Origin: Methanobacteriota archaeon
GTDB lineage: Archaea > Thermoplasmatota > Poseidoniia > Poseidoniales > Poseidoniaceae
Assembly (NCBI GenBank): GCA_002709705.1
Contig: PAQE01000008.1
Location: 4,380-56,940 of the forward strand
DNA length: 52,561 bases
Direction of reading: 5' to 3'
Below are positions 7,964 to 26,788 of the stretch, piece after piece; position 1 is the first letter of the stretch, and the number at the start of each line of letters is the position of its first letter. Both the position numbers and the translations under genes were made by a program. Under the pieces are notes generated by a model. That model saw only the letters and a program-made list of their open reading frames with translations. It was not told the DNA's origin and searched no databases.

Positions 7964-8557
7964 TTACTTACGCTGAAATATCGTAGAGATATACGGCCTT
8001 TCCCCACCAAACGGGTTGATATGTGTGTGCCTAATCGAATCGACTAGGAACCAATTCCCACCTAATAAATCGATTAACATCTCTTCATCATAGGTGTGTA
8101 AATCTAAGCCGCAACACATTTTTTCACCATCCGTTGAAAATGTTTCAATCACGGCGAAACCTCCACTTGATATGCAAGATTCTAGATTTGAAACATACTT
8201 TTCACGAGCGCTTTCATCTACCAAGAAATGCAGTACAGCACGGTCATGCCAAATCTCATATGCTCCCAAATCTAGTTTTTTAGACAAATCACCGCGGATG
8301 TATTCCAGATTATTTCCATGACGGTTTGAAAGTATGCGTAAAGCCTCGGATGAGATATCGAGAACCGTTACATCATATCCATTATCAACAAGTGATTCGA
8401 TTAAAGTTGAAGCACCTGCCCCAACATCGATTATACGCTTTCCATCACATGAAGCAATTAGATCCATTGAGACAGCGTGCTCTTTTTGATACCAACCTAA
8501 TTTTGTTGTATCAGCGTCGGTATATGCTGTATCCCAATGCCTTGCATCGCTTGGAAT
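7964..8557 (-). CDS. SAM-dependent class I methyltransferase, apparent ATT start
   Basis: The Rossmann methyltransferase core is clear: motif I IIDVGAGAST, the acidic motif II VTVLDIS, then YEIWHDRAVLHFL. The first ATG (8467) would remove the conserved N-terminal helix block. In the same frame upstream the translation continues DARHWDTAY then KLGWYQKEHAVS, the HWD-x-x-Y / W-Y-Q signature of this family, up to the TGA that ends the osmC gene (8567-8569). No ATG, GTG or TTG exists in that stretch. The best start is ATT at 8557, or ATC at 8560, preceded by gaggtgat, a good Shine-Dalgarno overlapping the osmC stop. The length from there is 197 residues. Last gene of the TusA-RibA-OsmC operon. Substrate unknown; related proteins are often called thiopurine- or tellurite-type methyltransferases. 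Confidence 0.8.
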   Translation of the reverse strand: MPSDARHWDTAYTDADTTKLGWYQKEHAVSMDLIASCDGKRIIDVGAGASTLIESLVDNGYDVTVLDISSEALRILSNRHGNNLEYIRGDLSKKLDLGAYEIWHDRAVLHFLVDESAREKYVSNLESCISSGGFAVIETFSTDGEKMCCGLDLHTYDEEMLIDLLGGNWFLVDSIRHTHINPFGGERPYISTIFQRK

Positions 8558-8566
8558 GATATCACC

Positions 8567-8965
8567 TCATTGAAATGTCACATCGACTTCCATTGATTCA
8601 CTAACAGAAACGCATACTGGGCAATTACAACCCTCAGTAATCAGCCAAGCTCTGTCATCCATATTCATCTCGGATGGTAAATTTATCACAACTTCGAGTT
8701 TAGCGACTCTTCGAGGATTAGGTGCCATTGTTTTCTCAACACTACCGGTCATTCCTGAAACATCAATTTGCTTGGAATCTGCTCTTATCGCTACGATTGT
8801 CATTATGCATGTTAGCATCGAAGTTGCCAACAGGTCAGTAGGTGAGAATGATTCACCCTTTCCTTTGTTGTCAACGGGTGCGTCTGTAATAAGTTGAGTA
8901 CCTGAAGGCTCATGAGTTGCAGTACATCTCAGATTTCCATCATAGGTTGCCTCAATTCTAACCAT
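8567..8965 (-). CDS. OsmC family thiol peroxidase-like protein
   Basis: A 132-residue OsmC/Ohr-fold protein. The family reduces organic hydroperoxides through two cysteines or, in some branches, has unknown substrates. Visible: the helix FSPTDLLATSMLTCIM with Cys53 and a second Cys in GCNCPVCVSV (Cys115 aligned with the Cys-Pro-Val position, with extra cysteines 113 and 118). The SPTDLLATSM pattern belongs to the YhfA/OsmC branch rather than Ohr. It starts at ATG 8965, directly after the ribA stop (8966), so the genes are translationally coupled. Co-operonic with ribA and tusA, which suggests a flavin/sulfur-redox setting. Confidence 0.85.
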   Translation of the reverse strand: MVRIEATYDGNLRCTATHEPSGTQLITDAPVDNKGKGESFSPTDLLATSMLTCIMTIVAIRADSKQIDVSGMTGSVEKTMAPNPRRVAKLEVVINLPSEMNMDDRAWLITEGCNCPVCVSVSESMEVDVTFQ

Positions 8966-25967: not shown

Positions 25968-26237
25968 ATGGAACCGACACATGATCCTACTGAAGACTGG
26001 CTAAGTGAGAGTGTTAAGTCTTGGATGGTAGAATATACCGTTGAAGTTGGAGGAGAAACCAACCGTCACCTCTCGATGATCAGTGCGAACGATATCAATG
26101 ACGTTCACCACCACTTACTGAGTGAACTGAGAAAGATGTATCAAACCAGCGAGAGAGTTGATGTCACTGTACACAGAATCGAGCCTGTAACTACAAACAC
26201 AGATGCACTGTATTTCGAAGGAATCTACTCACCCTGA
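25968..26237 (+). CDS. Small soluble protein, function unknown
   Basis: An 89-residue protein without signal or membrane segment. The pattern is a beta-alpha-beta unit: WMVEYTVEVGGETNRHLSMI, then helix DINDVHHHLLSELRKMYQTS, then RVDVTVHRIEPV. This resembles a small ferredoxin-like or dodecin-like fold, but no family is recognised. A TATA-like element lies 26 nt upstream. Its 3' end overlaps by 13 bp the convergent gene for the His-rich anchored protein. Confidence 0.6.
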   Translation: MEPTHDPTEDWLSESVKSWMVEYTVEVGGETNRHLSMISANDINDVHHHLLSELRKMYQTSERVDVTVHRIEPVTTNTDALYFEGIYSP

Positions 26238-26788
26238 GGTGATGTGTAAAAGATGACAATATTTTGCTTGTCAGCTAAAATATGGTTCTCATAATCGAGG
26301 CTAACTGTTCCATTAACCGTCATCTCTACAGTTCCGCCCCTGTAGTCAAAAATACCAGTTTCATTGAAATGCTTGCCCCATACATCGAAGAAAACCTCCA
26401 GAGGAACATCCTCTTTTGTATAGTTCTCAACATGTAATTTTCCCGAATTGTCGTGCGTATGAGTCATGTGCATTGCACTTGGGCAGGTTTCGGTATCAAT
26501 CCCAGCATTCGATGGTATATCGTATTCTTCACCATCAATTACGATTGTTAGGTAAGGATGTATGTGCATTTGCATTGAACTATTATGATCGGTCAAACAA
26601 TATTTTCCAAAGGGATGCATTTCATCTGCCGTACTGCCTGATGGTTGTTGTTGAGTTGGAATTTGCTGATCGGCTTGAACTTCTTCGTTATCGTCGAATA
26701 CATTTATCATTCCTTGATATTCCATCAAACCAAGTAACGAAACCAGGCAAACGATGGTGAAAACTCCCCACCAGCCGTTTTCATTCAG
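26225..26788 (-). CDS. Membrane-anchored His-rich extracytoplasmic protein, apparent CTG start
   Basis: The soluble part has HIHPYLTIVIDGEEYDIP, then MHMTHTHDNSGKLHVENY and LEVFFDVWGKHF, a His-rich arrangement suggesting metal (copper-like) binding; the family name is not known to me. The first ATG in frame falls after a hydrophobic helix. Extending upstream in frame adds NENGWWGVFTIVCLVSLLG, a good N-terminal membrane anchor, back to the TGA of the VKOR gene (26792-26794). No ATG or GTG occurs there; CTG at 26788 (7 nt after gagga) is the best candidate, and a TTG at 26731-26729 would lose the anchor. Length from CTG is 187 residues. Third gene of the TlpA-VKOR operon, so probably a substrate or partner of the thiol relay. 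Confidence 0.68.
   Translation of the reverse strand: MNENGWWGVFTIVCLVSLLGLMEYQGMINVFDDNEEVQADQQIPTQQQPSGSTADEMHPFGKYCLTDHNSSMQMHIHPYLTIVIDGEEYDIPSNAGIDTETCPSAMHMTHTHDNSGKLHVENYTKEDVPLEVFFDVWGKHFNETGIFDYRGGTVEMTVNGTVSLDYENHILADKQNIVIFYTSPQGE

Follow-up and report, generated by a model that had tools for sequence, protein, structure and literature searches.

Probable AUU start codons accompanied by extended Shine-Dalgarno sequences in a methyltransferase gene and the primase small subunit gene of a Poseidoniaceae genus

Good documentation of AUU start codons is confined to a handful of bacterial genes, with infC and pcnB of Escherichia coli as described cases (PMC1780047, PMC5472188). In a comparison of 36 prokaryote groups, one of 61,358 ancestral AUG starts had become AUU, and the weaker GUG and UUG starts tended to carry stronger Shine-Dalgarno (SD) sequences (PMC5622118). 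The efficiency of ATT in E. coli is about 0.3% of that of ATG (Hecht 2017, as cited in PMC10666635). AUG, GUG and UUG are the only start codons named in a 2020 review of initiation in archaea (PMC7531240). Our search of the open-access literature, with subscription papers outside its scope, found no report of an AUU start in an archaeon.

Here, we analyzed a stretch of 52,561 nucleotides (the window) from an ocean-surface archaeon of the Poseidoniaceae (MGIIa) whose draft genome comprises 1.53 Mb and is 77% complete. On the minus strand, osmC is followed by a gene whose product exceeds the curated cut-offs of four Pfam models and belongs to the class I SAM methyltransferases. The junction between the two genes contains the following features:

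8567..8965, minus strand: osmC (OsmC-like protein; Pfam PF02566, E 4.5e-8), with its TGA stop at 8567-8569
8561..8568, minus strand: Shine-Dalgarno sequence GAGGTGAT, overlapping the osmC TGA; complements the 16S 3' tail AUCACCUC with a duplex of -11.8 kcal/mol
8558..8566, minus strand: leader codons GGT GAT ATC, probably untranslated, which contain the spacer and the greater part of the SD; pN/pS 1.44, against 0.12 after the ATT
8555..8557, minus strand: probable ATT start codon of the methyltransferase; a column of ATG, ATT or ATC in congeners, with protein-coding constraint from the next codon
7964..8557, minus strand: SAM-dependent methyltransferase gene, 197 codons from the ATT plus stop; Pfam PF13649, PF08241, PF08242 and PF13489 above curated cut-offs
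8465..8467, minus strand: internal ATG, the first canonical start, the use of which drops the HWD...GWYQ block; missing in G009 (L015) and G020 (L014)

The minus strand reads ACA TTT CAA TGA (8569-8567) GGT (8566-8564) GAT ATC (8560-8558) ATT (8557-8555) CCA AGC GAT GCA AGG CAT TGG GAT, and the segment TGA GGT GAT ATC ATT (8569-8555) lies in the frame that osmC, on its upstream side, shares with the methyltransferase on its downstream side. An earlier note on this DNA had stated that the methyltransferase frame contains no ATG, GTG or TTG between the osmC TGA and the ATG at 8467, which we confirmed on the minus strand. The internal ATG (8467-8465) is codon 33 after the TGA. Genes for RibA and a TusA-like protein, identified with Pfam, are located upstream of osmC. 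The TusA-like gene (window 9942-9571, minus strand) lies directly upstream of the ribA-osmC-methyltransferase cluster, and its first canonical start is a TTG, 18 codons into its open frame.

We conclude that the methyltransferase is very probably translated from the AUU at 8557-8555, following a switch from AUG to AUU for which an extended SD would compensate, and that the same applies to PriS, the small subunit of DNA primase. We put the probability of this reading at roughly 0.93. Among 27 genomes of the genus, 18 have an orthologue of the methyltransferase. At the column of the window's ATT, ten species, including that of the window, have ATT (G000, G019, G023, G025, G017, G012, G022, G008, G020 and G016), seven have ATG (G024, G026, G007, G021, G013, G002 and G005) and one has ATC (G009), so that ATT or ATC is conserved in 11 of 18. 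The earlier note had considered both ATC and ATT as start candidates. While the ATT aligns with the ATG of relatives, the ATC at 8560-8558 was excluded, because the codon preceding the ATT varies among the ATT/ATC species (CTC, AAT, TTT, GAT, ATT, GTT, TCT, TCG or ACT in species other than that of the window). The HWD..Y......GWYQ block is kept in all 18 orthologues and is recognisable in 5 homologues from other genera (39-42% identity).

Protein constraint begins right after the ATT. Among the ATT/ATC species, pN/pS is 1.44 in the leader, 0.12 from the ATT to the internal ATG and 0.22 in the rest of the gene; the corresponding window-based values are 0.71, 0.144 and 0.207. Codons 4-32, located before the internal ATG at 8467, thus have a pN/pS of 0.12-0.14. 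Together with its conservation, this bears out the earlier proposal that the HWD...Y...WYQ block is translated. For other genes of the window, the region from the upstream stop to the first canonical start has a mostly high pN/pS (about 0.5-1.8), as expected of untranslated leaders. In most genes, open frames and similarity at the DNA level reach upstream, which made a first screen for upstream conservation by tblastn query start uninformative, and codon-substitution tests were used instead.

The strength of the SD follows the start codon. The window's MAG does not contain a 16S gene, and the 16S tail of congeners was used for SD pairing. In the genus, five full-length 16S genes have GGATCACCTCC at their 3' end, to which GAGGTGAT is an 8-nt perfect complement, in agreement with the good SD overlapping the stop that had been noticed before. 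It is separated from the ATT by 3 nt, and its GAGG core by 7 nt. The methyltransferase SD duplex is -9.5 to -11.8 kcal/mol in all 11 ATT/ATC species and -4.3 to -5.6 kcal/mol in all 7 ATG species, a perfect separation. The Fisher p of 3e-5 ignores phylogeny and is overstated, since the species are related. The species tree, the base of which has poor resolution, points to no more than a few switches of start codon per gene; the small number of independent switches counts against the AUU reading. Among ATG-first ORFs of three genomes, with a crude choice of start, only 22-31% reach -8.

A similar arrangement is observed for PriS. Its start in 26 congeners is ATT in 20, GTT in one (G009), TTG in one (G004) and ATG in four (G002, G005, G006 and G020), and the ATT again occupies the homologous position of the relatives' ATG. 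The pN/pS is 0.81 before the ATT and 0.07 after it. Shortly after the ATT, the protein aligns with an archaeal PriS of solved structure, 1zt2 (FTQYY to FRNYY), and the aligned residues precede the next canonical start, located 19 or 31 codons further on. The SD duplex is -8.3 kcal/mol or lower in all ATT and GTT species, and -6.3 kcal/mol or higher in all ATG species. Neither gene has a nearby canonical start that would give the full product, with the exception of PriS in G001, where an extra in-frame ATG four codons upstream speaks against the AUU and makes the start ambiguous. Among 27 genomes sampled from other genera, no AUU start of PriS was seen: ATG, GTG or TTG is found at or within a few codons of the column in nearly all of them, the exact start being unclear in some (e.g. 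G194, a short stretch).

The PriS gene of G000 is located outside the window (G000:C8, about 67136; L150, L183) and carries ambiguous bases. Two other genomes have two PriS loci each. Those of G002 (L203, L209) are alike and possibly lie on duplicate contigs, while those of G006 (L207, L210) are clearly different, possibly due to contamination by another genus.

To find further non-canonical starts, parts of nine genomes of the genus, including the window's own (about 2.36 Mb), were surveyed for coding constraint reaching upstream of any canonical start. A total of 1,351 ORFs was kept, and in 541 of these the first canonical start is separated from the upstream stop by 7 codons or more; both are counted over all genomes and include shadow ORFs. 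The survey returned the methyltransferase, PriS and one additional gene:

26225..26788, minus strand: gene located after a VKOR gene, no Pfam family; probable CTG start at 26788-26786, with a canonical start in congeners and coding-like upstream codons

The start column of this gene contains CTG in G000, G016, G009, G023 and G017, and ATG, GTG or TTG in at least 9 congeners; four more species have CTG together with an in-frame ATG two codons upstream. The gene appears to start at CTG, but the case is weaker than for the two ATT genes, because an out-of-frame ATG is present just upstream in the CTG-only species. Weaker still is a possible CUG start in a nucleotidyltransferase (LLGIIMAGGRGTRL) on the minus strand of L061 (G025:C4:60001-80000), also found in L057 (G023). 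Here, CTG precedes a conserved motif and is TTG in G020; G023 also has an upstream in-frame GTG. Six other candidates (L103/301, L089/19635, L145/6735, L173/2906, L175/18191 and L097/1709) were rejected as shadow ORFs, frameshifted fragments or ORFs with a clear ATG elsewhere.

Several alternatives to an AUU start can be considered. The earlier note had raised readthrough of the TGA, to which a selenocysteine-type redefinition may be added, producing an OsmC-methyltransferase fusion in which ATT is a plain isoleucine codon. In favour of such a fusion, the methyltransferase shares the frame of osmC and the TGA is kept in all but one congener. The stop is, however, no less conserved where the start is a normal ATG. 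Coding constraint does not continue across the stop, the three codons after it having the leader pN/pS of 1.44. Isoleucine is encoded by ATT, ATC and ATA at 50/30/19%, and an elongator Ile codon should therefore also appear as ATA, while among 32 AUU-type starts, counted over related species, ATT accounts for 30 and ATA is absent. In PriS of G014, G024 and G026, GGTG is preceded by AGA or CGA, leaving no stop to read through. Since PriS has AUU without a stop codon at that place, the use of AUU would be independent of it. Readthrough also does not predict that SD strength covaries with the start codon, and we consider it very unlikely.

Two further readings are less probable again, to about the same degree. 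Initiation at the internal ATG (8467) would yield a shorter protein and leave the upstream block untranslated. It is the first canonical start and the choice of gene callers limited to ATG, GTG and TTG. However, codons 4-32 are strongly constrained as protein, the whole block is encoded in relatives whose ATG stands at the upstream site, and the internal ATG is missing altogether in G009 and G020. These observations contradict a start at 8467. Alternatively, ribosomes could initiate at an AUG overlapping the osmC stop (cAATGAGGTGA) and shift to the +1 frame. The methyltransferase ATT species do have ATG AGG TGA at this place, where the end of osmC overlaps the SD, but this ATG results from the CAA TGA context, and most species with an ATG start have it as well. 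No constraint is seen on the codons that would follow the shift, and PriS has no such conserved ATG.

That the start codon was misread in sequencing or assembly, conceivable for MAG data in which some genomes have ambiguous bases (e.g. PriS of G000), has a negligible probability: the identical codon recurs at the homologous position of 10 species that were assembled separately, including a single-cell genome (AG-461-G23, L035/G012), and PriS has ATT in 20 species. Computed here were the place of the codon in the alignment, the point at which coding constraint sets in and the covariation of SD and start codon. All three favour the non-canonical start suggested by the earlier note and strongly support a real ATT start, as opposed to a sequence error or readthrough. 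The poor performance of AUU in E. coli, at about 0.3% of AUG (Hecht 2017, via PMC10666635), weighs on the other side.

We propose that within one Poseidoniaceae genus the ancestral AUG of the methyltransferase changed to AUU, and to AUC in one species. From general biology, the initiator Met-tRNA would most likely pair with the A and U of AUU. The extended SD (GAGGUGAU) would anchor the 30S subunit at the right distance, offsetting the weak codon, and PriS would use the same combination of AUU and strong SD. It is possible that initiation of the methyltransferase is coupled to the termination of osmC, 9 nt apart. The use of Met-tRNAi and the efficiency of the AUU starts, like any regulatory role, are inferred.

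To our knowledge, archaea have no IF3, and its role in fidelity is taken by aIF1. This factor discriminates against non-canonical starts in archaea (PMC6237735). An aIF1 (SUI1-type) homologue was found in 57 of 61 genomes searched, and loss of aIF1 was rejected as the cause because the homologue is present in the window's own genome and in nearly all relatives. Sampled stretches of G000 and G025, searched for an odd initiator-like tRNA, contained nothing unusual, and no initiator tRNA was seen in these partial samples.

By likeness to bacterial infC and sigR, a regulatory role of the AUU start is possible. A broader and more doubtful proposal, somewhat less likely than its negation, is that selection on start codons is relaxed across the genus and rescued by extended SDs. 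This could include AUU/AUC in the methyltransferase, AUU/GUU in PriS, CUG in the VKOR-linked gene and perhaps CUG in the nucleotidyltransferase. The weak start of PriS might then set or regulate primase dosage via aIF1, comparable to the control of infC by IF3.

AUU initiation would be conserved in PriS, an essential gene of replication, over some twenty archaeal species, and in the methyltransferase over about ten. Orthologues with AUG and AUU side by side represent a natural experiment in which a strong SD accompanies the weak codon, and archaeal start-codon fidelity becomes directly testable. Gene callers limited to ATG, GTG and TTG would truncate both proteins in these archaea, which are abundant in the sea.

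Among known systems, infC of E. coli, encoding IF3, likewise has an AUU start in a chromosomal gene (PMC5472188, PMC1780047). It is bacterial and its AUU serves the autoregulation of IF3, while neither of the genes described here encodes an initiation factor, their products being a methyltransferase and a subunit of primase. pcnB of E. coli also combines an AUU start with a nucleic-acid enzyme gene, and there the codon limits output (Binns & Masters 2002, via PMC1780047). It is a single bacterial gene, whereas we find two genes across a genus, with apparent SD compensation. Streptomyces sigR has a conserved non-canonical start that was missed by annotation and is repressed by IF3 (PMC5472188). 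However, its start is GTC, and it was shown experimentally to set a protein ratio in a bacterium (PMC5472188). Also comparable are the prokaryotic switches from AUG to GUG or UUG, in which a weaker codon is likewise matched by a stronger SD (PMC5622118). In the Poseidoniaceae genus, the switch appears to have led to AUU and to have been kept in about ten or more species per gene, in two genes, with fully separated SD strengths.
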